The position numbers were made by a program, and so were the translations under genes. The notes beneath the pieces were generated by a model that saw only the letters and a program-made list of their open reading frames with translations, had not been told where the DNA came from and made no database searches. From contig JAKBAA010000005.1 of assembly GCA_021809425.1 (NCBI GenBank), positions 1 through 64,000 on the forward strand: DNA of 64,000 nt. The letters are read 5' to 3'. Positions 12,277 to 41,816 of this stretch are shown piece after piece; the stretch's first letter is position 1, and every line of letters starts with the position of its first letter. The stretch is from Actinomycetes bacterium. Lineage in GTDB: Bacteria; Actinomycetota; Acidimicrobiia; Acidimicrobiales; Bog-793.

Positions 12277-12284
12277 CCCCCTCC

Positions 12285-13787: not shown

Positions 13788-13902
13788 CCGTAACGGCCCG
13801 GACGGCTCGTGGACGAGCCCCGGCCCATCGCCCAGCCGCTCCGTCACGGAGCCGACCCGCGGCCCCACGGCGTGCCGTCGCCGGCTGCCGCCCCGCGCCT
13901 CC

Positions 13903-20085: not shown

Positions 20086-20086
20086 C

Positions 20087-21724
20087 TCACACCCCCGGGC
20101 TCTCGTCGCCCCATCGTGGCATCCCTGACCTTTCCGGCGTCGGCTCGGCCACGAGACGGCTCGGCGGCGCGAACAGCAGCGACTTGACGACGACCGGCAC
20201 GACCCCACTCGGCCGGCGCGGTGGCGCCAGGTCGACGAAGTCCATGCCGCCCAGCTCGAGGCCGTCGAGCGCCACGACCACTGGCGAGACGAGCCCGATC
20301 TCCTCGGCCATGATGCGGCCGAGGGAGGCGCCGAGGTCGCGATCGACCACGAGCACGGCGAGCTCGACGCCGTCGCCGCCCGAGGTGCGCACCGCGTCGG
20401 CGACCCCGGCGCCCAGCGCGAGCAGGCGCTCGTGGGACGGGTCGCCCTCCCACGAGAAGGCCAGGGCGACCGCCCGCGCCGCCTCGATGGCCTCCCGACG
20501 GGTCGCCATCGCCCGACGAGCCGCCTCGGCGATCGCCCTGCGCTCCGGGTGCTCGAGGTCGATCGCCGGCCGCACCACCGGGACACCGTGCGCCGGAAGG
20601 ACCGCCTCGTCCCCGACGAGCACCGTGCTCCCGCTCACCTGGGTCGAGAACTGTGCGACGCCGATCACCGTTGCCCGGATGCCCTCGCCTGCGGGCAGCA
20701 GGGCCGGCGAGGAGGCCTCGGCGGCGAGGCGCCATCGGATCGCCTCGGCGAGCGATCGGCCGAGGTCGCCGAAGTCTCCCTGCTCACGCCCGGAGAGGAA
20801 CTCTGCGACCCCTCCCGAGAAGCTCACCGCGGCCACCGGAGACCACCGGATCGCCTCGGTGAGCCAGAGCGCCCTCGCCAGCGGGTCGTCCCGCCCGAGG
20901 ATCGTCGCCACCAGGACCTCCGCCATGCGGGCCGCGAGGACCTCCTCCAGCTGCGGCGAAAGCCGCGAGCCGACCTCGAGGTCGGCGCCGACGGCGGCAG
21001 CGATGGCACGACCGTTCCCCTCCAGGCGGACGATCCGGCGCCCCTCGCCCCAAGCCATGAGACGGCTCCCGAGACCGAGCGCCCCGGTGGAGACGACCGC
21101 CCCTGCCTCGCAGCGTGCCAGCTTGGTCGTGCTCCCTCCGACGTCGACCGCCAGGACCGCCGCACCGGTCGCCCTCGAGCGACCCACCGCGCCCGACCCG
21201 TGCGCGGCAAGCTCGGCCTCGAGATGGTGGCCGGCAGCGGCACACACGAAGCGGCCGGCGTCGCGGGCGATGGCATTGGCCACGGCCTGCGCATTGCTCC
21301 GCTCGAGGGCCGCTCCGGTGAGGAGCACCGCACCCGTGTCGACCTCCTCGAAGCCCAGGCCCGAGGCTCGCTCCGACGCCGCGAGAAAGTCCGCGAGGCG
21401 CGCGGCGTCGATCAGCCCGCCGTCGTCGGCGTACGGTGTGAGCAGGACGGGCGAGCGCCACAGCTCCTCGCGCCCGGTCATCACGTATCGGCTCGAGAGC
21501 GCCGTGGCCAACCGCTCGAGGCGGACCTTGGAATGGGAGAGGTGCGTGGTGGAGGAGCCGACGTCGATCCCCACCGTGCGGAGCTCGAACGCCTCGACGC
21601 CCTCGAGCAGTTGCCACGTGGAGCTCACCGCAGCGCGTGTGCGACGGGGCGAGGGCCGCCGGCCCGGGCCGACGGACACGTGCGGCTGCACCAGCACGCC
21701 AGCCCCCTTGACCGCCCCATGCAT
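20087..21724 (-). CDS. EutA-like ethanolamine ammonia-lyase reactivase family protein (ASKHA ATPase)
   Basis: TVGIDVGSSTTHLSHSKVRLE, GAVLLTGAALERSNAQAVANAIA, VLAVDVGGSTTKLARCE, AAVSFSGGVAEF; ATG at 21724 (alternative 21751). Confidence 0.8.
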   Translation of the reverse strand: MHGAVKGAGVLVQPHVSVGPGRRPSPRRTRAAVSSTWQLLEGVEAFELRTVGIDVGSSTTHLSHSKVRLERLATALSSRYVMTGREELWRSPVLLTPYADDGGLIDAARLADFLAASERASGLGFEEVDTGAVLLTGAALERSNAQAVANAIARDAGRFVCAAAGHHLEAELAAHGSGAVGRSRATGAAVLAVDVGGSTTKLARCEAGAVVSTGALGLGSRLMAWGEGRRIVRLEGNGRAIAAAVGADLEVGSRLSPQLEEVLAARMAEVLVATILGRDDPLARALWLTEAIRWSPVAAVSFSGGVAEFLSGREQGDFGDLGRSLAEAIRWRLAAEASSPALLPAGEGIRATVIGVAQFSTQVSGSTVLVGDEAVLPAHGVPVVRPAIDLEHPERRAIAEAARRAMATRREAIEAARAVALAFSWEGDPSHERLLALGAGVADAVRTSGGDGVELAVLVVDRDLGASLGRIMAEEIGLVSPVVVALDGLELGGMDFVDLAPPRRPSGVVPVVVKSLLFAPPSRLVAEPTPERSGMPRWGDESPGV

Positions 21725-21734
21725 CCCCCTGAGC

Positions 21735-21747
21735 AGAATTGACTTCT
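21735..21747. promoter_or_regulatory. Putative cluster operator AGAA-TTGAC-TTCT in eutA-like/iclR divergent promoter region
   Basis: Shared palindrome RGAA-N5-TTCT. Confidence 0.55.
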
Positions 21748-21885
21748 TCATTGTGTTCCGGGGCGCCCGACACGTCAAGCGCAGCGTCGTCCCAGGTGAT
21801 CCCGCCGTTCCGAGATCGGCTCGATAGGATGGGCGACGTGCCATCTTTGCGGACCGGGCCCATCGGCCGTCTCGCGTAGGCCTCG

Positions 21886-25817: not shown

Positions 25818-28184
25818 ATGTGCGCGTCCTTCCAGCCCGGGGACATCGACCGGTCGCCGGCGCGCCCGGGGAACGGCGCCGGGTCGGGGCGGGCCGGCGA
25901 CGGGCCGGCGACCGAGCTCGGCCGGGAGGCCGCCTACCTCGATCTGCTGTACCGGCGGCTCGACGAGCTGCGCGCCCTCCAGCGGAAGCGCCTCGCCGAG
26001 GTGCGGCTCGCACCACGGGGCGGGACGCCCCAGTCGCGCACCGAGCGAGACGTGCTCGCCCGCCAGCTGGAGCGGAGGCTCGACGCCCTCGCCATCGGCG
26101 ACCTCCCGCTGTGCTTCGGCCGGCTGGACCTCGCCGACGGCTCGGTGCTCTACGTGGGTCGGGTCGGCCTGTCCGGCGACGGCGACGACCCGCTCCTCGT
26201 CGACTGGCGCGCCCCGAAGGCCGCCCTCTTCTACCGGGCCACCCCGGGCTCGCCCGAAGGGGTCGTGCGCCGCCGCCACTTCATCACCCGCGGCCGGCGG
26301 CTCGTGTCGATCGAGGACGAGGTGCTCGACCCGGCAGCGCTCGGCGGCGAGGCAGTGCACGAGCTGCACGGCGACGCGGCGCTGCTCGCCGAGCTGAGCC
26401 GGTCGCGCACCGGCCAGATGCGCGACATCGTCGCCACCATCCAGCGGGAGCAGGACCAGATCATCCGCTCGGAGCTGTCCGGCGCCCTCGTCGTGCAGGG
26501 TGGCCCCGGCACGGGCAAGACCGCCGTGGGCCTGCACCGCGCCGCCTACCTGCTCTACACCCACCGCAGCCGGCTGGCCCAGTCCGGCGTGCTGATCGTC
26601 GGCCCGAACGCCGTGTTCCTGCGCTACATCGAGCAGGTGCTTCCCTCGCTCGGCGAGACCGGCGCGCTCATGGCGACGATCCGCTCGCTCTTCCCCGGCG
26701 TGCGCCCGACCGAGCACGACGTGCCGGCCGTGGCCGAGGTGAAGAGCCGGCCGGAGATGGCCCGGCTCCTCGCACAGGCCATCCTCGACCGCCAGCGGAC
26801 GCCGAGGGAGGACGCCGAGCTGGTGTTCGAGCGCCATCGGGTGGTCCTCGCACGGGAGCTGCTGGCGCGCGCCGTCGAGCGCGGCCGGCGGGCCAACCGC
26901 CCCCACAACGAGGCGCGCCCGCTCGTCGAGGCCGCCATCGTCGAGGCCGCCATCGCCCAGGTCCGCCGCGACCGGGCCGCCTCCGGCCTCCCCGAGCCCC
27001 GCCCGGACGAGCTGGCCGAGCAGCGCCGGCGGCTGCGCCGGACGCGCGCCGTGCGGGTGCTCATGGAGCAGCTGTGGCCGGTGCTCACCCCCCAGCAGCT
27101 CCTGAGCGACCTGTTCGGCTTCCCGGCGCTCGCCCGGTCCGCCGCCCGGGGGCTGACCGGTGTCGACCACCACCTGCTCGTTCGACCCCGCAGCGGCGAC
27201 CCGGACAAGACGCCGTGGACGGTCGAGGACGTCGCCCTGCTCGACGAAGCGGCCGAGCAGCTCGGCTCGTGGTCGAGCGAGGCCGATCGCCGCGCCCGGC
27301 GCGCCGAGGCGGCGCAGCGGCGGGAGCAGGTCGACTACGCCCGCTCGGTGCTGCGCGGCCTCCACCTCGGCATCGACGTCGACCCCGAGCAGCTCGTCGA
27401 GCGGTTCACGGCGACCGACCGGCCGAGCCTCGCCGAGCAGGCGGCCAACGACCGCAGCTGGCGGTTCGGCCACGTCATCGTGGACGAGGCCCAGGAGCTG
27501 TCCCCGATGGCCTGGCGGGCCGTGTTCCGCCGCGTGCCGAACCGCTCGATGACGGTGCTCGGCGACCTCGCCCAGAGCGGTGCACCGTGGGCGCCGGCAC
27601 GCTGGTCGTCCGTCCTCGAGCCCTTCGCCACGGGACGGTGGCGGCTCGTCGAGCTCTCCACCAACTACCGGACACCGGCCGAGATCATGGCGGTGGCGAA
27701 CGCCGTGCTGGCCGTCGCCGCGCCCGGCGTGCGCCCGACCGTCGCCGTCCGGGCGTCGGGACGGGCCCCCACCCGCCTTGCCACCCTGCCGGCGGCGCTC
27801 CCGGACGTGGCTGCCGAGGTCGCCGCCGCCCTGCTCGACGAGCAGGGCGGCGGTCGCCTCGTCGTCGTCTCGCCCCGGCGCCACCTCGAGGCGCTCCGGG
27901 CGGCCCTCTCGACGACGCTCGGCCCGCGCTTCGATGCCGCCAACCCCCTCGGCGCCCCGGCAGCGCTGCTCGAGGTGGCCGACGTGAAGGGCCTGGAGTT
28001 CGACGCCGTCTTGCTCGTCGAGCCCGGCGAGCTGGCCCGCCACGGCCGGCGGGGCGCCAACGACCTGTACGTGGCGCTCACCCGGCCGACCACGCGCCTC
28101 GTCCTGCTCCACGCCGAGGCGCTCACGCCCGAGCTCGAGGCGACCGTCTCGATCGAGCCGGCATGGCCGCCCCTTCGCCGCTGA
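25818..28184 (+). CDS. HelD/HelR-like UvrD-family ATPase (RNA polymerase recycling type)
   Basis: MRDIVATIQREQDQIIRSELSGALVVQGGPGTGKTAVGLHRAAYLLYTHR, HVIVDEAQELSPMAWRAVFRR, DVKGLEFDAVLLVEP. Confidence 0.87.
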   Translation: MCASFQPGDIDRSPARPGNGAGSGRAGDGPATELGREAAYLDLLYRRLDELRALQRKRLAEVRLAPRGGTPQSRTERDVLARQLERRLDALAIGDLPLCFGRLDLADGSVLYVGRVGLSGDGDDPLLVDWRAPKAALFYRATPGSPEGVVRRRHFITRGRRLVSIEDEVLDPAALGGEAVHELHGDAALLAELSRSRTGQMRDIVATIQREQDQIIRSELSGALVVQGGPGTGKTAVGLHRAAYLLYTHRSRLAQSGVLIVGPNAVFLRYIEQVLPSLGETGALMATIRSLFPGVRPTEHDVPAVAEVKSRPEMARLLAQAILDRQRTPREDAELVFERHRVVLARELLARAVERGRRANRPHNEARPLVEAAIVEAAIAQVRRDRAASGLPEPRPDELAEQRRRLRRTRAVRVLMEQLWPVLTPQQLLSDLFGFPALARSAARGLTGVDHHLLVRPRSGDPDKTPWTVEDVALLDEAAEQLGSWSSEADRRARRAEAAQRREQVDYARSVLRGLHLGIDVDPEQLVERFTATDRPSLAEQAANDRSWRFGHVIVDEAQELSPMAWRAVFRRVPNRSMTVLGDLAQSGAPWAPARWSSVLEPFATGRWRLVELSTNYRTPAEIMAVANAVLAVAAPGVRPTVAVRASGRAPTRLATLPAALPDVAAEVAAALLDEQGGGRLVVVSPRRHLEALRAALSTTLGPRFDAANPLGAPAALLEVADVKGLEFDAVLLVEPGELARHGRRGANDLYVALTRPTTRLVLLHAEALTPELEATVSIEPAWPPLRR

Positions 28185-29193
28185 GGGCGGGTCCACCTGC
28201 CGGGGCCGGCCCGGCCGTCCGGCGGAGGAAGAGCGTGCTCGGCACCCGCACCAGCCGGCTGCGCCGGGGCGCCCCGCCGGCCCGGCGCGCGATCTGCTCG
28301 ATCAACAGGCCGGCCGCCGCCGCCCCCACCGAGTCGAAGGGCGCCCCGATGGTCGCCAGGCCGAGCTGGCCGGCCATGGGGATGTCGTCGCAGCCGATCA
28401 CGGCGACGTCGCCCGGAACCCGGACGTCCCGGTCGGCGAGCCCGGCGACGATCCCGAGGGCGGTGATGTCGTCGTAGGCCAGCACCGCCGTCGCACCCGC
28501 CGCCAGCAGGTCGTCGACGCAGGCGCGGCCACGCTCGAACGCCCCGACGCTCGGTGCGAGGACGTGGCAGGCGGTCCCGCTCGCGTCGCACGCCGCCTGC
28601 ACGGCCGCCACCCGCTGCTTGTTCGACCAGCTGTCGGCGGGACCGCTCACGTAGTGGACCGCGTCGTGGCCGGCCCCGACGAGGTGGCGCACCGCCCGGC
28701 GCGCGCTCGGCGCCGTGTCGATCACCACCCCGCTGACGCCCCGGACGACCCGGTTGACGACGACCACCTCGCACCGCTCACGGAGCTCCAGGATCTCGCG
28801 GGCCGGGAGGCGGGAGCTCATCAGCAGCAGCCCGTCCACCTGGGCAGCAAGCTCGTTCGCCACGTGGAGCTCGCGCGCCGCGTCCTCGTTGCTGTCGCCG
28901 AGCAGGACGCTGAAGCCCCGCCGCCATGCCTCCTGCTGGCCCCCCCGGATGAGCGGCGGGAAGAACGGGTTGACGATGTCCGGGACGACCACCGCGATGT
29001 TCTCGGTCGACCCTCTCGTCAGGGAGCGTGCGAGCCGGTTGGGCACCCAGTCGAGGGCGCGCGCCGCCTCGAGCACCCGCCCCCGCGTCTCGGCGGAGAT
29101 CATCTCCGGGCGCGCGAGCGCCCGGGAGACCGTGGACGGCGACACGCCGGCGAGGCGTGCCACGTCGCGCACCGTGGCGCTCACCGGCGCCAC
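28123..29193 (-). CDS. LacI-family transcriptional regulator
   Basis: VRDVARLAGVSPSTVSRALARPEMISAETRGRVLEAARALDWVPNRLARSL. Confidence 0.95.
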   Translation of the reverse strand: MAPVSATVRDVARLAGVSPSTVSRALARPEMISAETRGRVLEAARALDWVPNRLARSLTRGSTENIAVVVPDIVNPFFPPLIRGGQQEAWRRGFSVLLGDSNEDAARELHVANELAAQVDGLLLMSSRLPAREILELRERCEVVVVNRVVRGVSGVVIDTAPSARRAVRHLVGAGHDAVHYVSGPADSWSNKQRVAAVQAACDASGTACHVLAPSVGAFERGRACVDDLLAAGATAVLAYDDITALGIVAGLADRDVRVPGDVAVIGCDDIPMAGQLGLATIGAPFDSVGAAAAGLLIEQIARRAGGAPRRSRLVRVPSTLFLRRTAGPAPAGGPALSGEGAAMPARSRRSPRARA

Positions 29194-29197
29194 CGGC

Positions 29198-30361
29198 TCA
29201 CCCCTCCCCGCCGCCCACGACGCACCCGGCGAGCAGCACCCGCACGACCTCCAGGCGGGTACGGTCGGCGTCGTAGGCGAGCACCGTCACGTCCGCCGGC
29301 GCGCCCACGCGCACCGCCCCGCCCGCCCGGCCGAGGAGGCCGTTGGGATTGGCCGAGGCCATCTGGACCGCCTGGCCGAGCGACACGCCGCCGTGGCGGA
29401 CGGCGCCGGCGACGCAGTCGACCAGGCCGACCGCCGAGCCGGCGAGGTACGGGGTTCCGGCCATCGACAGCCGCCGGTCGCCCGTCAGCGCAACCCGCCC
29501 GCCGATGTGCGCCTCGTACTCTCCCGGCGGCATCCCGGTGAAGGCGGTCGAGTCGCTGACGAGGATGCTCCGCTCGACGCCCTTCGCCCGCAGCATCGCC
29601 GTCAGCGTCGCCGCCGGCAGGTGGTGACCGTCCGCGATGAAGCTCGCCGCCAGCCGGTCGTCGGCCAGCTGCTCCCACAGGTGGTTCGGGTGCCTCGCCA
29701 GCACCGCCGGCGCCCCGTTGCCGAGGTGGACCGACAGGCGCGCGCCGGCGTCGACCGCCCGGGTCACGTCCTGCGCCGTGCAGGACGTGTGGCCGATCGC
29801 CACGATCAGCCCCTGCAGGGTGAGCGACCGGATGAGCTCGAGCGCTCCCGGCAGCTCGGGGGCGACCGTCACCATGCCGATCGCCCCCTCGGCCGCCACC
29901 TGCAGCCGGGCGATCTCGTCCAGGTCGGGAGGCCGGAGGTGCGCGACGGCATGGGCACCGCGGGCGCCGTCCTCCGGGCTCAGGTACGGGCCCTCCAGGT
30001 GGACGAGCGGGAGCGCGGCGGCGACCCGAGGGTCCATGCGCCGCGCCCCGGCGATCGCCGCCAGCCGGTGCGCCATCGCCTCCTCGGAGGCCGACACGAG
30101 GGTCGGGCACCACGCCGTCACCCCGGCGCGCCAGTGGTGCTCGGCGAGGGAGCAGACGCGTCCCGGCGTGAGGTCGTCGTCGTTGAGGTCGATCCCGCTC
30201 GCCCCGTTCACCTGGAGGTCGACGAGCCCCGGCGCGATCCACGCCTCCGCCTCCTCCGCCTCTGCCTCGTCGGCGGCGCACAGGTCGGCGATCACGCCGT
30301 CCTCGTAGGTCAGGCGGACGGCGCGCCCGCCCTGGACGAGGCGCCCGACGAGCTCGCCCAC
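29198..30361 (-). CDS. nagA: N-acetylglucosamine-6-phosphate deacetylase
   Basis: APGLVDLQVNGASGIDLND, HLEGPYLSPEDGARGAH, IAIGHTSCTAQDV, DSTAFTGMPPGEYE. Confidence 0.93.
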   Translation of the reverse strand: MGELVGRLVQGGRAVRLTYEDGVIADLCAADEAEAEEAEAWIAPGLVDLQVNGASGIDLNDDDLTPGRVCSLAEHHWRAGVTAWCPTLVSASEEAMAHRLAAIAGARRMDPRVAAALPLVHLEGPYLSPEDGARGAHAVAHLRPPDLDEIARLQVAAEGAIGMVTVAPELPGALELIRSLTLQGLIVAIGHTSCTAQDVTRAVDAGARLSVHLGNGAPAVLARHPNHLWEQLADDRLAASFIADGHHLPAATLTAMLRAKGVERSILVSDSTAFTGMPPGEYEAHIGGRVALTGDRRLSMAGTPYLAGSAVGLVDCVAGAVRHGGVSLGQAVQMASANPNGLLGRAGGAVRVGAPADVTVLAYDADRTRLEVVRVLLAGCVVGGGEG

Positions 30362-30362
30362 C

Positions 30363-31154
30363 TCACCGCCCCCGGGCCGCTGGCACGGGGAACGCGTCGC
30401 GGTCGACGAACAGCGTCGCCGCCCGGTGCGTGCGCAAGATGGTCGCAGGGCACGACTCGTCGATCGGCCCGTCCATCGTCCGGGCCAGTGCCGCGGCCTT
30501 GGTCGGGCCCGGCACGACGCCGACGATGCGCCGGGCCGAGACGAGGGCCGGGACGGTCATCGTGACGGCGGTCACGGGAACGTCGGCCAGCTGCGCGAAG
30601 CAGCCGTCGTTCACCTGCTGGCGGCGGGACGCCTCCGAGAGGGGGACGAGCGCGAGCCACGCCTCGTCGGAGAAGCTGCAGCTGCCGGGCTCGTTGAAGG
30701 CCAGGTGGCCGTTCTCGCCGATGCCGCAGCAGACGAGGTCGATGGGCGCGTCGCGCAGCAGCGCCTCGTACCGTGCAAGCTCCGTGTCCGGGTCCGACGG
30801 CTCGATGAGGTTGACCGCGCCCGGCGCCACCAGGTCGAACAGCTCTCGGCGCAGGAACGCCGAGAACCGCTGCGGCGCGTCGGGCGGGAGCCCCAGGTAC
30901 TCGTCCATGTGGAATGCCACGACCCTCGACCAGTCGACCTGCGTGCTGGCGCGCAATGCCTGGAGCAGCTCGAGCTGCGAGGGGGCCGAGGCGAAGACGA
31001 CACGGACCAGCTCCTGCCGGTCGAGCAGCTCGCTCATCGCCGCCTCGACCAGCTCGCCCGCCGCCGCGCCGGCAGCGGTGCGGGTCGCGTACACGTTCAC
31101 GTCGAGGCGCCCGACGCGGCGGCGCTCGACGGGCGCGCACGAGCCGGCGGTCAC
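30363..31154 (-). CDS. nagB: Glucosamine-6-phosphate deaminase/isomerase family
   Basis: VAFHMDEYLGLPPDAPQRFSAFLRRELF, CGIGENGHLAFNEPG; GTG start. Confidence 0.92.
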   Translation of the reverse strand: MTAGSCAPVERRRVGRLDVNVYATRTAAGAAAGELVEAAMSELLDRQELVRVVFASAPSQLELLQALRASTQVDWSRVVAFHMDEYLGLPPDAPQRFSAFLRRELFDLVAPGAVNLIEPSDPDTELARYEALLRDAPIDLVCCGIGENGHLAFNEPGSCSFSDEAWLALVPLSEASRRQQVNDGCFAQLADVPVTAVTMTVPALVSARRIVGVVPGPTKAAALARTMDGPIDESCPATILRTHRAATLFVDRDAFPVPAARGR

Positions 31155-32500
31155 CGGCCCGCCCCGGTCGCCCCGGGCCGCCCGTCCAGCAGCTCGACGA
31201 GCTCCATCAGGCCCCGGGTGATGTGGAAGGGGTCCTTCACCGGGAGGGCCACCACGCGGTCGATCGGCGCGCCCGCCCGGTCGCGGATCTGGATCCACTC
31301 GCTCCCCTCGCCGGGTCGGGCCGGAAAGGTGTCGAAGGTGTAGTCGTGCACCTTCTGCGCCCAGCGGGCCAGCACCGGGTCGCCGGTGCGCTCGACGACG
31401 AGCCGCAAGGCGTACACCGCCTCGATGTGCGGCCACCACAGCTTCGTGTGCCACGTCGCCACGATCAGCTCCTCGAACGAGCCACCCCGCCTGGAGCCGG
31501 TCGGCTGCCCGCCGCCGGCGTCGACGTAGCGGAACAGTCCCCCGTGCTCCTCGTCCCATCCCACCTCGACCGCCCACCGCATCACCGCGCGGGCGAGCGC
31601 CGAGGTGTCCCGTCCGATGGAGCGCTCCGCCTTGAGCGCGAAGGCCATCCCCTCGAGGGCATGTCCCGGCGTCCGGTGCCGGCTGAGCAAGGCCGACTCG
31701 CCCGGGTCGGCGGCGCTCACGAGCTCGCGGATGCACGAGCCGGGGCCGACGAAGGTCCCGACGACGGCGTCGAGCCAGCGGGACGCCTCGGCCTCCGGTG
31801 CGACCCGGACCTCGACCCCGAGCTCCCCGACGCTCCGGCACAGCTGCTCGGCGAGGCCGAGCAGGATCATCGCCGCGCCGTGGGCCCGGTAGCCGTCGGG
31901 CACGGGGTACGGGGCCGACGGGAAGCGGCCGGTCTGCACCCGGGCCGCCACCGCGGCGTACACCTCGACCGCCTGGTGCACGAGGGCGGCGCGACCGGTG
32001 ACGCGTGCGAGCTCGGCCAGCCCGAGCGCCACGAAGCAATCGGCATAGATGCTCGGCGTGTCGGGCGTCCGGACGCCACCGAGGCGGTCCAGCAGGTACC
32101 AGCACGAGCCGTCCGGCTTCACGGCATGAGCGAGCACGAAGTCGGCAGCACGCTCGGCGAGGTCGAGGAGGTGCGCCGCCGGCGCGTCGAGCAGCCCTCG
32201 CCCGGCGAGGTCGGCGGCACGAGCGAGCAGCCAGATGGCACGACCCTGGGACCAAGTGTACTTGTCGGTGCCGAGGAGCCGCTCCCCGCGGTTGTCGAAG
32301 CAGGTGAAGAGACCCCCCGCCTCCTCGTCGACCGCCCGCTCGAGCCAGAACGGCAGCACCACGGTCTCGAGGTGCTCGCGGTAGACCTCCACGCCCGGCA
32401 GGCCCGCGCCGTCCGCCCCCGGTCCGTGCCGCGCCGTCGCCGGCGCCTTCCCGACCTCCGATGCTGCGTGCACGTCGCCTGGGCTACCCACTGGCCTCAT
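31151..32500 (-). CDS. AGE-family N-acylglucosamine 2-epimerase-like protein
   Basis: GTDKYTWSQGRAIWLLARAA, RTPGHALEGMAFAL, KLWWPHIEAVYAL. Confidence 0.9.
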   Translation of the reverse strand: MRPVGSPGDVHAASEVGKAPATARHGPGADGAGLPGVEVYREHLETVVLPFWLERAVDEEAGGLFTCFDNRGERLLGTDKYTWSQGRAIWLLARAADLAGRGLLDAPAAHLLDLAERAADFVLAHAVKPDGSCWYLLDRLGGVRTPDTPSIYADCFVALGLAELARVTGRAALVHQAVEVYAAVAARVQTGRFPSAPYPVPDGYRAHGAAMILLGLAEQLCRSVGELGVEVRVAPEAEASRWLDAVVGTFVGPGSCIRELVSAADPGESALLSRHRTPGHALEGMAFALKAERSIGRDTSALARAVMRWAVEVGWDEEHGGLFRYVDAGGGQPTGSRRGGSFEELIVATWHTKLWWPHIEAVYALRLVVERTGDPVLARWAQKVHDYTFDTFPARPGEGSEWIQIRDRAGAPIDRVVALPVKDPFHITRGLMELVELLDGRPGATGAGR

Positions 32501-32677: not shown

Positions 32678-34522
32678 TCACGCCTGCGCGCCGCCGAAGC
32701 GAGCGGCGGTGCTCCAGAGGCCGAGGGCAGGGTTGGCGATGTGGAAGAAGGGGCTACCGCCGGCGTCGAGGCGCGGCCCGGTCGGCGAGCCCGCCCCGAC
32801 GCCGAGCTCGTCGAGCGCCTGGGCGAGCGGTCGCCAGCCGTAGCCGACGGCCTCCAGCTCCGCCCGAGTGAGGCCACCCCGGTCGGGGTCGGTGCAGTAG
32901 GTCACCGAGAAGCGGCCCTCGGTGCTGCCGTGGACGAGGTGGGCCGCGGCGCTCGCGTTCCCGGCGAGCTCCGAGTCCCGGCCGAGCGCCCCGACGACTG
33001 CTGGGGTGCCGCGGTACCCGTGGCGGCGGATGAGGGCGTCGATCTGCGCGTCCTCGCCGAAGCGGTCCACCCCGGGCGCCAGCACGAGGAGGTGCGCCCC
33101 GTCGGCCAGCGCCATCCGGGTGCGGTAGACCGCCTTGTTGCCGAGCCAGGTCGAGTGGAACTCCGCAGGGTCGAGGTAGCACGACACCCTCGCCAACGGC
33201 TCCGGCACGATCTGGACGTTGCACACGCCCGCGAGCTGCGCGGCCTGCCGGTAGGCCGCGCCGCCCGTCCCGCCGGAGCCGCCGCGCCCGGCGAGCACGG
33301 CGCGCAGCACGGTCCGGTCGCCACGCTGCTCCACGACGGTCACGACGAAGAGCACCTCGACGAGCGGGGCGACGAACCGGTCGAAGGCGGCGTCGACCAC
33401 GTCGCGCACCGGCGTCGAGGCCCGACCCATGATCGTCTCCATCCCGCAGAGCGCACCGAGCAGGTGGGTCTGGTCGATCGTCGCGGCGCCACCGAGCCCG
33501 ACCACCAGGTTCTTCGTGTAGTTGGCCATCCCCACCACCTCGTGCGGGAGGACCTGGCCGATCGAGACGACGAGGTCCCAGCCTTCGAGCAGCTGGGCGT
33601 CGACCGCCACCGGGACGGGCACCTCGAGCCGGCCGCCCGAGACGGCCGACACCTCGGCGGCCCCGATCTCCCCCACCTGCACCACGCCGTGGCGCCAGTC
33701 GTGGTGGCGCAGGCGGCCGGGCGGCACCCGCTCGCCGAACAGCTGGGCGCAGTCCTGCTCCGACATCGGCCGGTGCGTGCCGGTCGCCGGCAGGACGGCC
33801 ACCTCGGCGCCCGCGTCCTCGAGGGCGTGGAGCAGGAGCCCCGTCAGCTCGCCGCCCCGCGAGCCCAGCCGGGTGTGGTCCGGTGGGACGAGCAGGATCC
33901 GCTGCGCCGGCCTCGGCACGATCTGCTCGGCGACGAGCGAGGCAACCAGCTGCTCGAGGTCGTCGGTCCGGAGGTCGGCCGACGCGCCGCCCCACTGGCG
34001 GAGCGGAGCGACGGCCGTACCGGGCGTCAGCCGGGCGAGCGCCGTGCGCGCCAGCTGGACGAGCTCGCCCGGCGCTCGCCCGGCGTCGAGGCACGCCACG
34101 TCGGTCTCGTCCGGGTCGGGGCGCTCGAGCGCGGCGAACTGGCTCTCCAGCATCGCCACGCCCATGAAATGCGCCGAGCGACCCCCGACGCGACGGGCCG
34201 CCTCCAGCGGGTCGACGTAGAGGTAGAGGAAGCAGACGTCGCCGGCGGCACGGAGCGCGTCCCGGTAGGAGCGGCGCAGGGCCGAGCACGACACCACCGC
34301 CGCCGGCCGGTCGCGCAGCGCCTGGCGGATCGCCGCAAGCCACGGCCAGCGCTCCCGGTCGGTGAGGGGGGTGCCGGCGCGCATCGCCGCCACGTTGTCG
34401 GCCGGGTGCAGGTCGTCGCCCTCGAGGAACGGCACGCCCAGCGCCAAGGCGAGGGCGGAGCCGACGAGCGACTTGCCGGATCCGGCCACACCCATCACGA
34501 CGACCCGCCGTGCGCCGCTCAT
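32678..34522 (-). CDS. Fusion protein: N-terminal gluconokinase (GntK) + C-terminal LarA-like nickel-dependent lactate racemase/hydroxyacid epimerase
   Basis: GntK: VVVMGVAGSGKSLVGSALALALGVPFLEGDDLHPADNVAAMRAGTPLTDRERWPWL; LarA: LVPPDHTRLGSRGGE, GTHRPMS, VLPHEVVGMANYTKNLVVGLGG. Confidence 0.88.
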   Translation of the reverse strand: MSGARRVVVMGVAGSGKSLVGSALALALGVPFLEGDDLHPADNVAAMRAGTPLTDRERWPWLAAIRQALRDRPAAVVSCSALRRSYRDALRAAGDVCFLYLYVDPLEAARRVGGRSAHFMGVAMLESQFAALERPDPDETDVACLDAGRAPGELVQLARTALARLTPGTAVAPLRQWGGASADLRTDDLEQLVASLVAEQIVPRPAQRILLVPPDHTRLGSRGGELTGLLLHALEDAGAEVAVLPATGTHRPMSEQDCAQLFGERVPPGRLRHHDWRHGVVQVGEIGAAEVSAVSGGRLEVPVPVAVDAQLLEGWDLVVSIGQVLPHEVVGMANYTKNLVVGLGGAATIDQTHLLGALCGMETIMGRASTPVRDVVDAAFDRFVAPLVEVLFVVTVVEQRGDRTVLRAVLAGRGGSGGTGGAAYRQAAQLAGVCNVQIVPEPLARVSCYLDPAEFHSTWLGNKAVYRTRMALADGAHLLVLAPGVDRFGEDAQIDALIRRHGYRGTPAVVGALGRDSELAGNASAAAHLVHGSTEGRFSVTYCTDPDRGGLTRAELEAVGYGWRPLAQALDELGVGAGSPTGPRLDAGGSPFFHIANPALGLWSTAARFGGAQA

Positions 34523-34550: not shown

Positions 34551-35351
34551 TCACGCGGGGGTCGGGCGACCGCGCCGGGGTCGAGGCCCCAGCGGGGCCC
34601 TCGTGTCGGGGACCGCCAGCCGCTCCCGGATCCCGGCGAAGTGCTCGACCATCGCGGCGACCGCCGCCTTCTGGCTGCGCCGCCGCACCGCCTCGTAGAT
34701 CTGCCGGTGGCGGTGCACCATCGCGAACGGATCCTCGGCGATCGGGGGAAGGTCGCTCTGCAGCTCGTGGAGGGCGTCCCAGAAGGCCCCGAGCACCCGG
34801 TTGACGAGCGGGTTGCCGAGTCGCCCGTAGAGCAGCTCGTGAAAGGCACGGTCGGTCTCGTCCGAGTGCGTTCCGTGCACCGCTTCCTCCTCCATGCGGG
34901 CCAGCACCGACTCGAGCTCGGTCAGGTCCGTCTCGGACCGATTCTCGAGGAGGTACTCGATCAGACCGCGCTCGAGGATCTCGCGCAGCTCGACCAGCTG
35001 CAGCAGGCTCTCCCGGCCCGTCTGGAGGGAGAGGCGCCCGTGGAAGGTCAGCTCGTCGACGAGGCCGCCGAGCGACAATTGGCCGACGTACATGCCGAAC
35101 CCACGACGCACCTCTACCACGCCGACCGCCTGCAGCGCCTTCAACGCCTCCCGGAGCGGGTTGCGGCTGACGTTCAGCTCGTTCATCAGCTCGAACTCGG
35201 TGGGAAGCGGCTCCCCGGCCGCCAGCCTGCGCTCGAGGATCAGGGCCTTGATCCGCTCCTGGAGGTCGAGGGACGAGTTGCTGCGCACCAGCGGGGGTCG
35301 CCTCGAGTTGCGGAGGTAGGCGTCACCGCCCGGAGGTCGATCGACGGTCAT
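34551..35351 (-). CDS. GntR/FadR-family transcriptional regulator
   Basis: AAGEPLPTEFELMNELNVSRNPLREALKALQAVGVVEVRRGFGMYV plus FCD domain; start chosen at 35351. Confidence 0.9.
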   Translation of the reverse strand: MTVDRPPGGDAYLRNSRRPPLVRSNSSLDLQERIKALILERRLAAGEPLPTEFELMNELNVSRNPLREALKALQAVGVVEVRRGFGMYVGQLSLGGLVDELTFHGRLSLQTGRESLLQLVELREILERGLIEYLLENRSETDLTELESVLARMEEEAVHGTHSDETDRAFHELLYGRLGNPLVNRVLGAFWDALHELQSDLPPIAEDPFAMVHRHRQIYEAVRRRSQKAAVAAMVEHFAGIRERLAVPDTRAPLGPRPRRGRPTPA

Positions 35352-35488: not shown

Positions 35489-36550
35489 CTATCGTCCGGA
35501 AAGGAGCGTACCTCCGCTTGCGGCGGCACGAGGAAGCTCCTCCCAGAGGTGGCACGCTACCGCCCCTCCGTCCGGCGTCGGGGCCAGGACCGGCACCTCG
35601 GTCCGGCAGCGGTCGCGGGCGAACGGGCAGCGCGTGTGGAAGCGGCAGCCGGCGGGGACGTCCATCGGGCTCGGGATCTCGCCGCGCAACAGGGGCGGCG
35701 GCGAGGAGCGGGCAGGATCGGCGACCGGCGTGGCTGCCACGAGGCCCTGGGTGTAGGGGTGGCGAGGCCGCTCGAACAGCGAGCTGCTGGCACCTCGCTC
35801 GACGACGGCCCCGAGGTACATCACGTACGTCTCGCGGGCCAGGTGGCGGACCACGTTCAGGTCGTGCGCGATGAACAGGTACGAGACGCCGGTGGCGCGC
35901 TGGACCTCCTTCAACAGCTCGAGCACCTGCGCCTGCACGCTGACGTCGAGGGCGGCGACCGGCTCGTCGCAGACGATGAGAGAGGGCGCAGGCGCCAGCG
36001 CCCGGGCCAGCGCGACCCGCTGCTGCTGGCCGCCCGACAGCTCGTGCGGGTAGCGGTGCTCCGCTCCGGCCGGCAGGCCAACCTGGTCGAGGAGCTCCCG
36101 GACCCGCTGCGGACGGGACGCCCTGTCACCGATCCGCTGGATGTCGAGCGGCTCGCGCACGATGCTCCCGACCCGCATGCGGCCGTTCAGGCTCCCGATC
36201 GGGTTCTGGAACACCAGCTGTGCACGCTGGCGGAGCACCCTGAGGGAGCCACGTCCGGCGCTCAGGACCTCGTGGCCCTCGAAGGTGACCGCGCCGCCCG
36301 CGGCCGGCGTGAGCCGGAGGAGGGCTCGACCGAGGGTGCTCTTGCCGGAGCCGGACTCGCCGACCAGGCCGACCGTCACCCCCCGGCCGACGGTCAGCGA
36401 CACCCCGTCGACGGCGCGGACGACCGCGTGCGACCGGGCCCCACGGACACGCACGCGGTAGTTCACGACGAGGTCGGAGACCTCGACGAGCGGCGATGCA
36501 CCGGGCGGGGCGCCGGGAGGGGCGCCGGGAACGGCCCGGGGGGCGCTCAC
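35489..36550 (-). CDS. Oligopeptide/dipeptide-type ABC transporter ATP-binding protein (OppF/DppF)
   Basis: VGLVGESGSGKSTLGRALLRL, HELSGGQQQRVALARALAPAPSLIVCDEPVAALD; GTG start. Confidence 0.92.
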   Translation of the reverse strand: MSAPRAVPGAPPGAPPGASPLVEVSDLVVNYRVRVRGARSHAVVRAVDGVSLTVGRGVTVGLVGESGSGKSTLGRALLRLTPAAGGAVTFEGHEVLSAGRGSLRVLRQRAQLVFQNPIGSLNGRMRVGSIVREPLDIQRIGDRASRPQRVRELLDQVGLPAGAEHRYPHELSGGQQQRVALARALAPAPSLIVCDEPVAALDVSVQAQVLELLKEVQRATGVSYLFIAHDLNVVRHLARETYVMYLGAVVERGASSSLFERPRHPYTQGLVAATPVADPARSSPPPLLRGEIPSPMDVPAGCRFHTRCPFARDRCRTEVPVLAPTPDGGAVACHLWEELPRAAASGGTLLSGR

Positions 36551-37551
36551 TGGCCCACCCGGACGCACGCCACCTCGTGGCCGGCGGCGACGGCGCGCAG
36601 CTCGGGGAGCGCGACCGTGCACTCGGGTGCGGCAAGCGGGCAGCGAGGGGCGAAGGAGCAGCCGGCCGGCAACGTGGCGAGCTGCGGCGGCGCGCCGGGG
36701 ATCGCCGAGAGCACAGTGGTCGTGGGCGAGGCGATGTCGCGTACCGTGCGCAGGAGGGCCTGGGTGTAGGGGTGGGCCGGTGCCGAGAAGAGGTCGGCGG
36801 TCGGTGCCCGCTCGACGATCCGGCCGGCGTACATGACGTCGACCTCGTCGGCCATGCCGGCGACCAGGCCGAGGTCGTGGGAGACCAGCAGGACGCCCAT
36901 CCCGAGCTGGGCCTGGCGCTCGGCGAGGAGCGCCATCACCTGCGCCTGCAGGGTCGTGTCGAGCGCCGTCGTGGGCTCGTCGGCGACGAGCACGTCGGGC
37001 TCGGCCGAGAGGGCGAGCGCCAGCATGATCCGCTGGAGCATGCCGCCCGACATCTCGAAGGGGTACTGGTCGAGGCGGCGAGGGGCGTCGGCGACCCCGA
37101 CGGCACCGAGCAAGTCGCGGGCGCGGGCCCGCGCCGCCGGTCGTGACAGGGCGAGGTTGTGCCGGAGCACCTGCAGGAACTGCTGCCCGATGGTGAGGAC
37201 CGGGTTCATGGCCACCATCGGGTTCTGGAAGACCATGGCGATGCGCCGGCCGCGGAACCGGGCGAGGTCGGCGTCGGAGCAGCTGGCGAGCTCCTCGCCG
37301 CCGATCTGGAGCCGCCCGGCAGCCACCGACGTCCCCGGCGGCGTGAGCCCCAACAGGGCGAGGCCGGTGAGCGTCTTTCCGGAGCCGGACTCGCCGACGA
37401 GAGCGACCGTGCGGTGTCGGTGCACGGTGAGGGACACCCCGCGGACGAGGTCGTGCCCGCCCGTGCGCGGCCCGAGCGTGACGCGCAGGCGCTCCACCGC
37501 GAGGGCGGTCGCTGCGCCGACCGGGGTGGCCGGCTCGGTGACGGCCCTCAC
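36547..37551 (-). CDS. Oligopeptide/dipeptide-type ABC transporter ATP-binding protein (OppD/DppD)
   Basis: GESGSGKTLTGLALLGL, EMSGGMLQRIMLALALSAEPDVLVADEPTTALD; GTG start. Confidence 0.92.
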   Translation of the reverse strand: MRAVTEPATPVGAATALAVERLRVTLGPRTGGHDLVRGVSLTVHRHRTVALVGESGSGKTLTGLALLGLTPPGTSVAAGRLQIGGEELASCSDADLARFRGRRIAMVFQNPMVAMNPVLTIGQQFLQVLRHNLALSRPAARARARDLLGAVGVADAPRRLDQYPFEMSGGMLQRIMLALALSAEPDVLVADEPTTALDTTLQAQVMALLAERQAQLGMGVLLVSHDLGLVAGMADEVDVMYAGRIVERAPTADLFSAPAHPYTQALLRTVRDIASPTTTVLSAIPGAPPQLATLPAGCSFAPRCPLAAPECTVALPELRAVAAGHEVACVRVGQ

Positions 37552-38444
37552 GGCCGGCGCCTCTCGGCCCCGCGGTGGGGGTCGAGGCGGTCCTGCAGCC
37601 CGTCGGCGAGCAGGGTCAGGCAGACGACGAGGACGACGATCACGGCGATCGGGAAGACGATGGGCCCGGCTGCGTAGGCGAGGAAGGCCTGACCCTCGCT
37701 CACCATGGCCCCGAGCGACGGCGCCGGCGGGTGCGTCCCGAGGCCGAGGTAGTTGAGCGAGGCCTCGGCGACGAGCGCCTGGGGTGCGGCGATGGCGAAC
37801 TGGACGACGAGCGGCGCGACGACGAAGGGCAGGACGTGGCGCACCATGATCCGCGGAGCGGAGGCGCCGGCCGCCTTGGCGGCCACCACGTGGTCCGACC
37901 GCGCGGCGAGGAGCGCGATCGACCGGACGAGGCGCGAGAAGACCGGCACCTCGGCCAGACCGATGGCGATGATGACCTGGAGCTCGCCGGTCCCGAGGAG
38001 GAGCACGACGGCGAGCGCGAGGAACACGGCTGGCCACGCCACGAGCAGGTCGAGGATCCTCGTCACGATCGAGTCGATCACCGAGCCGAAGTAGCCCGAC
38101 GGCAGCCCGAGCAGCACGCCGACGACCGCTGCCAGGGCGATCGCGGCGAACCCCGACTCGAGCGAGGGCCGCAGCCCGTAGAGGATCCGGCTGAGCAGGT
38201 CCCGGCCGAGCTGATCGGTGCCGAGAAGGTGGGCGGTCGATGGGCCCTGCAGCCTGCTGCCGATGGCGAGGGCGTCCGGCGACCAGGGGCTCACGACGCC
38301 CGCCAGCACGGCGGCCAGCACGAAGGCGACCAGCCCGCCGCCGCCTACGAGCTCGCGCCACGACAGCCGGCGGACGCCGGCGCGCACGCGGGGAAGCGTG
38401 GCCCGCACTGCCACCGGGGCGGCCGTCACCGGGGAGGCCGTCAC
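37548..38444 (-). CDS. ABC transporter permease (DppC/OppC type)
   Basis: HLLGTDQLGRDLLSRILYGLRPSLESGF. Confidence 0.92.
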   Translation of the reverse strand: MTASPVTAAPVAVRATLPRVRAGVRRLSWRELVGGGGLVAFVLAAVLAGVVSPWSPDALAIGSRLQGPSTAHLLGTDQLGRDLLSRILYGLRPSLESGFAAIALAAVVGVLLGLPSGYFGSVIDSIVTRILDLLVAWPAVFLALAVVLLLGTGELQVIIAIGLAEVPVFSRLVRSIALLAARSDHVVAAKAAGASAPRIMVRHVLPFVVAPLVVQFAIAAPQALVAEASLNYLGLGTHPPAPSLGAMVSEGQAFLAYAAGPIVFPIAVIVVLVVCLTLLADGLQDRLDPHRGAERRRP

Positions 38445-39388
38445 CGTACCTGCACGCGAAGGCGCGGGTTCGCCAGGCCGACGACGAGGTCGACGACGAA
38501 CATGACGAGCAGGAACACCGCTGCGCCGAGGAGGAGCACCCCTTCCACCACCGGGTAGTCGAGGCTCTGGATCGACTGCACCGTCAGGTACCCGATGCCG
38601 GGGTACGAGAACACGGTCTCGGTGATGAGCGCCCCGGCGAGCAGCCGGCCGACCTGGATGCCCATGACGGTGATCGTGGGGATCACGGCGTTGCGCCAGG
38701 CGTTGGCGATCACCGTGCGCCGGGGGAGCCCGAGCGAGCGAGCCGTCAGGACGTACGGCTCCCCCATCGCCTCACCGAGCTCGATACGCACGTAGCGTGC
38801 CAGCACCGCGGCGAACGGGATGGCGAGCGTCACGGCGGGCAGCCACAGGAAGTGGAGCGCCGAGAGCAACGACTGGCCGGGAACGCCTGCGCCTGCAGCG
38901 GGCATCACCCGGAAGTGCACGGCGAACACCAGCACGAGCAGGGTCCCGAGGGCGAACACCGGGACGCTCAGCCCGAGCGCGGCGAAGGCCGAGATGGCCG
39001 TGTCGGCCCAGCTCCCCCGCCGGAGGGCCGCGACGAGCCCGAGCGGCAGCCCGAGCACCAGCCCGAGCACGATCGCCACCACGTCCAGGCGCAACGTGTA
39101 GCCGAAGGCGGTGACGACCGTGCTCGTCACGGGCAGCCCGGTGGTGAAGGACTTCCCGAGGTTCAGGTGCAGCACCTGGGTCGCCCAGATCAGGTACCGA
39201 TGCAGGATCGACGCGTCGAGGCCCAGCTTCTGGCGCTCGACGGCGATCTGGGCTGGCGTGGCGGTCAGCCCGAGCTGCACCTGCGCGGGATCCCCCGGCG
39301 CGTGCTGGATGACGAGGAACACGGCGATCGAGGCCAGGAGCAGCGTGAGGAGCAGCTGACCCGACCGGACGAGCGCAAAGCGCCACAT
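38441..39388 (-). CDS. ABC transporter permease (DppB/OppB type)
   Basis: HAPGDPAQVQLG, GALITETVFSYPGIGYLTVQSIQSLDYPVVEG. Confidence 0.92.
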   Translation of the reverse strand: MWRFALVRSGQLLLTLLLASIAVFLVIQHAPGDPAQVQLGLTATPAQIAVERQKLGLDASILHRYLIWATQVLHLNLGKSFTTGLPVTSTVVTAFGYTLRLDVVAIVLGLVLGLPLGLVAALRRGSWADTAISAFAALGLSVPVFALGTLLVLVFAVHFRVMPAAGAGVPGQSLLSALHFLWLPAVTLAIPFAAVLARYVRIELGEAMGEPYVLTARSLGLPRRTVIANAWRNAVIPTITVMGIQVGRLLAGALITETVFSYPGIGYLTVQSIQSLDYPVVEGVLLLGAAVFLLVMFVVDLVVGLANPRLRVQVR

Positions 39389-39397
39389 GGCGTCAAC

Positions 39398-40180
39398 CTA
39401 TCCCGGCCTGCTTGCCTGCAGCGCCGCTGCCCGCAACGTCTCGGCGAGGCGCTGGACGCCGCGAGCGACGAGGTCGGTGTCCGACGAGCAGGTCGTCACG
39501 AGCGAGCCCTCGCCGATCCAATGGGTCGCCTGCTCCGGCGTCGAGGTGAAGAACCCGAACGGGACGTCGCGCTCGAGGCAGCGGTCGCGGATCGACACGA
39601 ACACCTTCTCGACCTCCGAGTTGGCGCGGTCGTCGGAGTAGCCGAGCGAGATGGCAAGGTCCGCCGGCCCCACCATGATCCCCGAGAGCCCCTGGACCGA
39701 GAGGATCTCGTCGAGGTTGTCGACGGCCAGCGCGGTCTCGACCTGGGCGAGCACCACGACCTCCCCGTTCGCCTCGCGCGCGTAGTCGAGGGCGTCGCCC
39801 CCCGTCGCGCGCCGGCTCGGTCCCCAGCTCCGGCGCCCCTCGGGTGGGTAGCGCGCCGCGTCGACCGCGCGGCGCGCCTCCTCGGCGCTGTTGACCATGG
39901 GCACGATGACCCCCGTCGCCCCCACGTCGAGCGCCTGGCCGATGCGCACCGGGTCGTTGCTCGCGACCCGGACGAGGACCGACAGCTCGGTCGGTCGCAG
40001 GGCGATGACCATCCGCTGCAGCGACTCGACGGAGAGCGCCACGTGCTGGGTGTCGACGAGCACGAAGTCGAGGTCCACGTTGCGCAGCAATTCGCTGACG
40101 GTCACGTCGGAGATCATGTGGGCGGAGCCGATCGCCGGTCGTCGGTTGCGGAGGGCCTCCGGCAGCCTGCTCGAGCGCAT
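39398..40180 (-). CDS. HpcH/HpaI-family aldolase
   Basis: VDLDFVLVDTQHVALSVESLQRMV, GATGVIVPMVNSAEEARRAVDAARYPPEGRRS, GIMVGPADLAISLG. Confidence 0.9.
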   Translation of the reverse strand: MRSSRLPEALRNRRPAIGSAHMISDVTVSELLRNVDLDFVLVDTQHVALSVESLQRMVIALRPTELSVLVRVASNDPVRIGQALDVGATGVIVPMVNSAEEARRAVDAARYPPEGRRSWGPSRRATGGDALDYAREANGEVVVLAQVETALAVDNLDEILSVQGLSGIMVGPADLAISLGYSDDRANSEVEKVFVSIRDRCLERDVPFGFFTSTPEQATHWIGEGSLVTTCSSDTDLVARGVQRLAETLRAAALQASRPG

Positions 40181-40211: not shown

Positions 40212-41816
40212 TCACGAGAGCGACGCCCCGCCGAGCTGGAGGTTGCCGATCAGGTCGGCGGACTGGCCGCGCACCTTCGACGACCAGGCCCAGGTGTTCG
40301 AGTAGGTGACGATCGAGATGCAGTGGGCGCTGTCGACCACGATGCGGTTCAGGTCCTGGTAGGTCTGGGCGCGCTGCTTCGGGTCCACCTGGCGCTGGCC
40401 CTGGGCGATGAGCGAGAGGACGAAGCTGTCCTGGTACCCCATCGCCTGGGAGTTCCCGGGGATGAAGTTGCCCTGGGTCCCCCAGAAGACGCCCCCGTCG
40501 AGCAGGCACCGGCCGTTGTTCCAGATGAGCACGTCGGTGGCCGGATTGGTGATGTTGCTCAGCCACGACGGGGTGTCGGCCGGCTGGATGTTCAAGGTGA
40601 TCCCGATGCGGGCGAGGTCCGCCTGCCAGATCTCTGCCAAGGTCTGCAAGGGGGGGTAGGCGACCGGCAGCGGGAAGTTCATGGTGAGGCTCCCGACGCT
40701 CGCCGAGTCGAGCAGCGTCTTCGCCGTGTCGAGGTTGAACGGCTGGGCGTGGACGAGGCTCTCCACGTAGCCGGTGGCCGCCGGGGTGTAGAAGGGGGTC
40801 GACACGGGCTTCTCGTAGCCGAAGTAGGCCGCCTGGGAGATCTGCTGGCGGTTCAGCGAATAGGAGAGGGCCTGGCGGACCGCCTTGTCGTTGAAGGGCG
40901 GCTTCGCGCAGTTGACCATTAGGTCCCAGACCCCGGTCTGGACGCGCGAGTGGGTGTACTGCCGGCTGTGGATCGACTTCATGTCGGCGTAGTTCGTCAC
41001 GAGCACGCCGTCGACCAGGCCGGAGCGGAGGTCGGACACGAGGGAGGTCCCTGCAGCGAACGTGTCGAACTGCAGCTGGGAGACGGCCGGGCGCCCCGCC
41101 CAGTAGCCGGGGAACGCCTCGAGGTACGCCCCCTGTGACGGGTCGAATCGCTTCATCGCGTACGGACCCGTGCCGTCGGGCAGGTGGGAGGTGAAGTTGG
41201 GGTCGCTCGGCTTGTCGAAGTTCACGAGGTACCAGTACGACAGGATGTCGAAGGCGTACGGAAGCGGCTCGCTGAACTCCATGACCACTGTCTGGGCATC
41301 GGGCGCCCGGACGGCGGCGACCGGCTTGAACAGCCCGGTCATCTTCTCGACGCCGAGGTCGGTCTTGAGCGCGGGGTCGGTGAGGTAGCCGAACATGCGA
41401 ACGAAGTCGTCGGCGGTGACCCGCTTGCCGCTGTGCCAGGTGAGCTTCGGACGGAGCTTCAACGTCAGCCGCCGGGCATTCGGGGCAAGGGTCCACGACT
41501 CGGCGAGGTCCGCCACGGGCTTTCCCTGGCTGTTCACGTAGAGGAGCCGGGAGAAGATCTGGTTGGCGATGTCCTCCTCGACCGGCTGCTCGTGCCACGG
41601 GTTGAACGTGGCGAACGCTCCGGCCTCGGCATAGCGCAGGATGCTGCTCGCCTTCCCGCGCGTGGTGCTCGCCGACCTGGCGGCGGACGGGAAGGACAGG
41701 CCGCTCGCCCGTCCGACCCCCTTGACGGCAGCAAGCCCTGCGAGCGCGCCGCCGCCTGCCAGCAGCTTGCGGCGGCTGAACGTGACGCCGTCAGCCTGCA
41801 ACGGTGATTCCGGCAT
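40212..41816 (-). CDS. Peptide/nickel-type ABC substrate-binding protein (SBP_bac_5), Tat-like signal
   Basis: SRRKLLAGGGALAGLAA; LAESWTLAPNARRLTLKLRPKLTWHSGKRVTADDFVRMF. Confidence 0.92.
   Translation of the reverse strand: MPESPLQADGVTFSRRKLLAGGGALAGLAAVKGVGRASGLSFPSAARSASTTRGKASSILRYAEAGAFATFNPWHEQPVEEDIANQIFSRLLYVNSQGKPVADLAESWTLAPNARRLTLKLRPKLTWHSGKRVTADDFVRMFGYLTDPALKTDLGVEKMTGLFKPVAAVRAPDAQTVVMEFSEPLPYAFDILSYWYLVNFDKPSDPNFTSHLPDGTGPYAMKRFDPSQGAYLEAFPGYWAGRPAVSQLQFDTFAAGTSLVSDLRSGLVDGVLVTNYADMKSIHSRQYTHSRVQTGVWDLMVNCAKPPFNDKAVRQALSYSLNRQQISQAAYFGYEKPVSTPFYTPAATGYVESLVHAQPFNLDTAKTLLDSASVGSLTMNFPLPVAYPPLQTLAEIWQADLARIGITLNIQPADTPSWLSNITNPATDVLIWNNGRCLLDGGVFWGTQGNFIPGNSQAMGYQDSFVLSLIAQGQRQVDPKQRAQTYQDLNRIVVDSAHCISIVTYSNTWAWSSKVRGQSADLIGNLQLGGASLS

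Follow-up and report, generated by a model that had tools for sequence, protein, structure and literature searches.

The window, by which we mean the whole 64,000-nucleotide stretch of acidimicrobial DNA analysed here, holds a minus-strand gene cluster that runs from position 41816 to 28123 and encodes, in order, a substrate-binding protein, an aldolase, an ABC transporter, a GntR/FCD regulator, a GntK-LarA fusion, an AGE-family protein, NagB, NagA and a LacI-family regulator (Table 1). The fusion gene, translated from the minus strand, reads without a stop from an ATG at 34522 to its stop codon at 32678 and gives a protein of 614 amino acids. An earlier note on this DNA had described a single open reading frame joining a gluconokinase (GntK) domain to a LarA-like domain, and this description holds: the frame is uninterrupted, matches the models TIGR01313, NF052594 and Lar_N, and contains all of the motifs that had been quoted. 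As a conjecture, the amino-sugar setting would fit import of an oligosaccharide containing both uronate and hexosamine.

Elsewhere in the window are a EutA-family protein (ethanolamine ammonia-lyase reactivase type) adjoining a cupin protein (18970-21751), an 827-amino-acid protein with two stretches matching CoA-transferase family III (56803-59286) and, side by side, a molybdenum hydroxylase large subunit and a UbiD-type decarboxylase (10135-13868), this pair suggesting an aromatic-acid degradation cluster.

Table 1 Coordinates of the fusion gene, its domains and key residues, and the neighbouring genes.
Feature	Position in window	Strand	Basis
Family-5 substrate-binding protein of transporter	40212..41816	(-)	PF00496
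HpcH/HpaI-family aldolase (2-dehydro-3-deoxy sugar acid type)	39398..40180	(-)	Profile matches
Opp/Dpp-type ABC transporter, two ATPases and two permeases	35489..39388	(-)	Profile matches
GntR/FCD transcriptional regulator directly upstream of fusion, start uncertain	34551..35288	(-)	PF00392, PF07729
GntK-LarA fusion gene, 614 aa	32678..34522	(-)	Single open frame; both domains with curated models; fused orthologues
GntK domain, residues 1-150	34073..34522	(-)	TIGR01313; 48% identity to gluconokinase structure 3t61
P-loop GVAGSGKS, residues 11-18	34469..34492	(-)	Sequence; G11, V12, G14, G16, K17 and S18 invariant in 5 fusions
Linker, residues 151-184	33971..34072	(-)	Least conserved part; ordered in structure model
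LarA (group-18-like) domain, residues 182-604	32711..33979	(-)	NF052594; fold best matched by 4nar
D215-x-T-R218 (LarA D72, R75)	33869..33880	(-)	Alignment to 2yjg; 87/87 group-18 rows
H250 (catalytic H108)	33773..33775	(-)	Alignment to solved LarA chains; group-18 alignment
H327 (catalytic H174), then loop E328-V329	33536..33544	(-)	Alignments; EV signature of groups 18-20 from PMC7583248
K337 (K184, Lys tethering the nickel-pincer nucleotide)	33512..33514	(-)	Alignments
H353 (H200, nickel ligand)	33464..33466	(-)	Alignments
W459...K463 (alpha-11 Trp of groups 18-20; K298)	33134..33148	(-)	Alignments
N-acylglucosamine 2-epimerase (AGE) family protein, start uncertain	31151..32392	(-)	PF07221
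NagB-like deaminase	30363..31154	(-)	Profile matches; neighbour also kept in G012, 66% identity
NagA-like deacetylase	29198..30361	(-)	Profile matches
LacI-family regulator, closes the minus-strand cluster	28123..29193	(-)	Profile match

Two domains and a predicted nickel-pincer cofactor

The N-terminal domain is a GntK/IdnK-type gluconokinase, with kinase activity predicted from sequence. In a profile search, residues 7-149 scored 160.2 bits against the gluconokinase model TIGR01313, above its membership cut-off of 113.75, and the fold agreed with GntK/IdnK-type gluconokinase structures (3t61, 1knq) at a TM of 0.84. The gluconokinase motifs GVAGSGKS, EGDDLHP, SCSALRRSYRD and HFM are all present by sequence and by alignment to 3t61, and core GntK positions are invariant across all five aligned fusions.

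The nearest family to the C-terminal domain is NF052594, ‘nickel-dependent putative hexonate epimerase’ (LarA group 18), whose match covers the whole LarA segment listed in Table 1 at 465.4 bits, with the next LarA-type family at 53.6. Because this score is below the equivalog cut-off of 500, we label the domain group-18-like and do not count it as a formal member. The other three acidimicrobial fusions (430-474 bits) and an unfused LarA protein from genome G011 also fall below this cut-off, which is passed by the fusion of Saccharobesus (619 bits), by Catenovulum and by one Bacteroidota member (656 bits). Both the Pfam Lar_N domain (PF09861; 53.1 bits, cut-off 23.3) and the LarA fold (Foldseek TMt 0.80 to 4nar and 0.67 to 5huq) were found. 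The AlphaFold model of the fusion has a mean pLDDT of 94.2 and a pTM of 0.91, the latter suggesting that the two modelled domains adopt a defined arrangement. Its top Foldseek match was 4nar, a Thermotoga maritima LarA homologue that we take to be GntE, followed by LarA holoenzymes and gluconokinases. Identity to the other four fusions is 53, 26, 38 and 13% in the linker, compared with 43-69% in the GntK domain and 44-71% in the Lar domain.

Alignment, proposed earlier as a check on the cofactor-binding His and Lys residues, recovered the lysine, the nickel-ligand histidine and both catalytic histidines. Equivalents of D72, R75, H108, H174, K184, H200 and K298 are conserved without exception across the 87 group-18 rows, and so are the EV loop and the alpha-11 Trp (E328, V329 and W459 in the fusion); ten acidimicrobial LarA paralogues that were aligned with them, though more distant, carry these same residues. 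Loss of cofactor residues is thereby ruled out and, both histidines being present, so is a LarA of the single-histidine type (PMC12393405). Desguin et al. gave this EV loop and Trp as marks of LarA groups 18-20 (PMC7583248). In that study, members of groups 19 and 20 catalysed D-mannonate/D-gluconate epimerisation in vitro, and for group 18 action on a hexonate was a prediction only; the literature searched yielded no assayed group-18 enzyme.

The earlier note saw no larB, larC or larE near the fusion, correctly, and the search that it suggested found all three elsewhere in the genome, each above cut-off: larB and larC as neighbours on contig 5 (C5:2329-4124) and larE on contig 170 (C170:10073-10837). 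A genome devoid of larBCE is therefore ruled out. G012, a relative with a fusion of its own, likewise has larB and larC on one contig and larE on another, and LarC occurs in five of five further genomes with a fused, adjacent or contig-edge gene. LarBCE is common in the family with or without a group-18 LarA, so its presence permits the reaction and is no proof of it. In G011 (94% complete), which encodes an unfused group-18 LarA (L058:2991-4295), the searches gave neither a LarC match nor any LarB above cut-off.

Conservation and origin of the fusion

Full-length fusions occur in three other Acidimicrobiia genomes at 58-69% identity: 69% in G012 (locus L069), from another genus of the same family, and 58% each at loci L070 and L073. 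With the acidimicrobial fusion thus found in four independent genomes, neither a frameshift nor an assembly join, the artefacts against which the earlier note had cautioned, explains it. The LarA-domain tree places the four acidimicrobial fusions, the unfused G011 protein and L071, a gene whose contig starts inside the reading frame so that its N-terminal side lies off the contig, in one well-supported acidimicrobial group.

The database survey of this architecture, also suggested earlier, added a fifth fusion on a gammaproteobacterial plasmid (Saccharobesus litoralis WP_159084288.1, L149:11920-13689; 42% identity). That protein is annotated as a gluconokinase only, though the LarA domain makes up two thirds of it. 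In the LarA tree it falls beside gntK-larA pairs that are not fused, from Catenovulum and from a Cellvibrionaceae genome; given the starred branches, the fused state must have changed at least twice. The Catenovulum genes overlap by TAATG, and two bases fewer in Saccharobesus produce an in-frame join. The Saccharobesus fusion would have a separate origin, less secure than the first since it was found on one plasmid, where a sequencing error is conceivable in principle. In the GntK tree, which is small and mostly weakly supported, the acidimicrobial fused kinases group with unfused acidimicrobial ones (95/97), apart from those of Gammaproteobacteria and Phycisphaerae.

The fused form is rare. 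Our class, order and phylum searches covered samples; the genome holding the window gave the sole fused match in a class sample of 395 genomes, three fusions were present among the best 80 of 545 group-18 candidate loci, and none was found among 50 genomes with a LarA-domain match from Planctomycetota, the phylum with the LarA nearest to that of the acidimicrobial clade. Unfused gntK and larA lie adjacent or overlapping at four loci (L072, L079, L150 and L187), the last, in another acidimicrobial genome, having them overlap in the opposite order. Such adjacency, together with the two-base difference behind the Saccharobesus join, would suit a neutral merger of neighbouring genes, with both activities as in the route proposed below and no functional coupling between them. 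The persistence of the fusion, with neither active site impaired, in four divergent genomes, and the separate fusion in another clade of the LarA tree, speak against neutrality, which we consider rather unlikely, its probability overlapping that of the proposed route.

Hexuronate context and a proposed route

In the window's own genome, a glucuronate isomerase gene (uxaC; 499.6 bits, cut-off 387) lies beside a fructuronate-reductase-like gene on contig 15, a different contig from that of the fusion, and a 6PGDH match is on the same contig 15. UxuA (mannonate dehydratase) had no match in this genome, where at 93% completeness absence is not final, or in G098, G099, G100 and G101; UxuA-family proteins are present in G102 and in G012, the G012 homologue being distant (153 bits).

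Among relatives, L070 and L073 have the gene order SDR, uxaC, fusion, with genes touching or overlapping, and L072 has SDR, uxaC, gntK, larA. The best model for the L073 SDR is D-mannonate oxidoreductase and the L073 UxaC passes the glucuronate isomerase cut-off; the L070 SDR was assigned from Pfam and from similarity to its L073 counterpart. The G012 fusion adjoins a fructuronate-reductase-like gene and lies beside genes for NagB (66% identity), a SIS protein and a BadF-type ATPase/kinase, in a genome with no UxaC match. The Saccharobesus fusion is grouped with larB, UxaE, gnd and uxaC, and the Catenovulum gntK-larA overlap sits beside larC, larB and uxaC. The genome of the L073 fusion (G100) also has a second cluster on contig 84 (L169:1-5023), with a LarA-like fragment, uxaC, a fructuronate-reductase-like gene and an FGGY-like kinase.

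Among the best 80 of 545 group-18 candidate loci, Gnd is encoded within 3 kb of larA in 48, SDRs matching the mannonate-oxidoreductase query occur in 39 and UxaC in 10. A genome normally has one or a few copies of Gnd, which puts its frequency near larA far from chance, and this neighbourhood says that carbon leaves as 6-phosphogluconate. Hexuronate-pathway context is found in these Gnd counts and in the adjacency of uxaC and SDR genes at L070, L073 and L072.

We favour, at a probability of roughly three in four, reading the fusion as a bifunctional enzyme of hexuronate breakdown that takes D-mannonate to D-gluconate (LarA) and then to 6-phosphogluconate (GntK), bypassing mannonate dehydratase. 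The earlier note had suggested this sequence of reactions, and it is strengthened by the relatives' operons, the adjacency of Gnd and the lack of a recognisable UxuA in the fusion's own genome; the activity itself is a sequence-based prediction. D-glucuronate would reach mannonate via UxaC and fructuronate reductase, and LarB, LarC and LarE would make the nickel-pincer nucleotide in trans for the C-terminal LarA domain. This domain would reversibly epimerise D-mannonate at C2 to D-gluconate, which the N-terminal GntK domain would phosphorylate with ATP, pulling the reversible epimerisation forward; Gnd would take 6-phosphogluconate onward. The route would stand in for mannonate dehydratase and KDG kinase. 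The data show the fusion, its conservation, its unaltered active-site residues, the cofactor genes of the genome and the gene neighbourhoods in relatives; which substrates are used, which step comes first and whether fusion brings any kinetic benefit are inferred. Points against this reading are the NF052594 score (465 against 500), the amino-sugar genes neighbouring the fusion in the window and the placement of uxaC and the reductase on another contig. The missing UxaC match and the distant UxuA homologue in G012, and the opposite order of steps in Lactobacillus suebicus extracts (PMC6978723), also count against it.

The two steps could run in reverse order, with the GntK domain acting as a mannonate kinase and the LarA domain converting 6-phosphomannonate to 6-phosphogluconate, which would leave the net reaction unchanged and differ in the intermediate. 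Phosphorylation first has been shown in cell extracts of L. suebicus, which expresses gntK-like kinases (PMC6978723), and the Gnd and UxaC context fits this order as well as epimerisation first, so context alone cannot settle the matter. Epimerisation first is favoured because tested GntE enzymes with the same EV/Trp signature use free mannonate (PMC7583248) and because E. coli GntK is reported not to, as far as the citation of that report in PMC6978723 goes; we regard the reverse order as improbable.

More improbable still is a redirection of the subclade formed by the window and G012 fusions to another hexonate, within a pathway for amino-sugar/uronate oligosaccharides that the Opp-type transporter would feed. 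The NagA, NagB and AGE-family genes that come after the fusion in the window, and the NagB, SIS and BadF-type neighbours of the G012 fusion, would be at home in such a pathway; however, the GntK and LarA active-site residues are the same as in the relatives' uxaC operons, and a fructuronate-reductase-like gene lies beside the G012 fusion. LarA chemistry requires a 2-hydroxy acid, which excludes 2-amino acids derived from hexosamines, and a mixed uronate/hexosamine substrate would equally fit mannonate epimerisation followed by phosphorylation.

Putative group-18 epimerases and known systems

Across 82 loci (the best 80 of 545 candidates plus two plasmids), group-18 larA is accompanied by GntK in 7 and by a PfkB-family kinase (PF00294) in 37, with both together in none. 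The PfkB kinases, exemplified by L101:6251-7345 and L087:3582-4703 and present at 35 other group-18 larA loci, are often found with Gnd and an SDR. An FGGY gluconokinase was rejected as the usual partner of unfused group-18 larA, being present at only 1 of the best 80 loci, where PfkB is commoner. The split between GntK and PfkB partly follows phylogeny and fits non-orthologous replacement of one kinase step, predicting the PfkB-family protein as a candidate second hexonate kinase. It is an evenly balanced proposition that group-18 LarA proteins overall epimerise mannonate and gluconate in a widespread route leading from hexuronates to 6-phosphogluconate without mannonate dehydratase, that their partner is GntK (fused or adjacent) in some lineages and a PfkB-family kinase in Bacteroidota and others, and that the fusion is a kinase-driven, one-polypeptide version of the two steps.

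Full-text searches of open-licence PMC papers found none describing a GntK-LarA fusion. The chemistry, both protein families and the separate-gene operon are known; the fusion and the group-18 assignment appear to be new. The fusion offers a Rosetta stone for group 18 of the LarA family: the substrate of that group is so far a guess, which the fusion opens to direct testing. It illustrates how one polypeptide can couple a reversible epimerisation that depends on a nickel cofactor to a phosphorylation that is practically irreversible. It also suggests that poorly studied lineages have an alternative to mannonate dehydratase, and it predicts what the PfkB kinase encoded next to this epimerase in many genomes does.

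In Thermotoga this route is encoded by separate genes in one operon, gnd-uxaRED-gntEK (PMC3750489). T. maritima GntE and GntK share with the fusion the same two inferred reactions, the LarA fold and the pathway neighbours gnd and uxaE; however, they are separate proteins, identity is 23% by structural alignment and GntE belongs to another LarA group. LarAH group 18 (NF052594) is by far the nearest family to the LarA domain (465 against 54 bits) and has the same signature residues, whereas the fusion falls below the curated cut-off of 500 and is joined to a kinase. Compared with GntK/IdnK gluconokinases (TIGR01313; 3t61, 1knq), the kinase is a full domain with the P-loop and conserved core, but forms the N-terminal part of a two-domain protein. 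The mannonate kinase/6-phosphomannonate 2-epimerase pathway of L. suebicus achieves the same net conversion of mannonate to 6-phosphogluconate with the steps in opposite order and no fusion reported (PMC6978723). Saccharobesus WP_159084288.1 is likewise a GntK-LarA fusion, has 42% identity to the window protein and lies near uxaC, uxaE, gnd and larB, but is separate in the Lar tree, has almost no linker and scores above the group-18 cut-off (619 bits).
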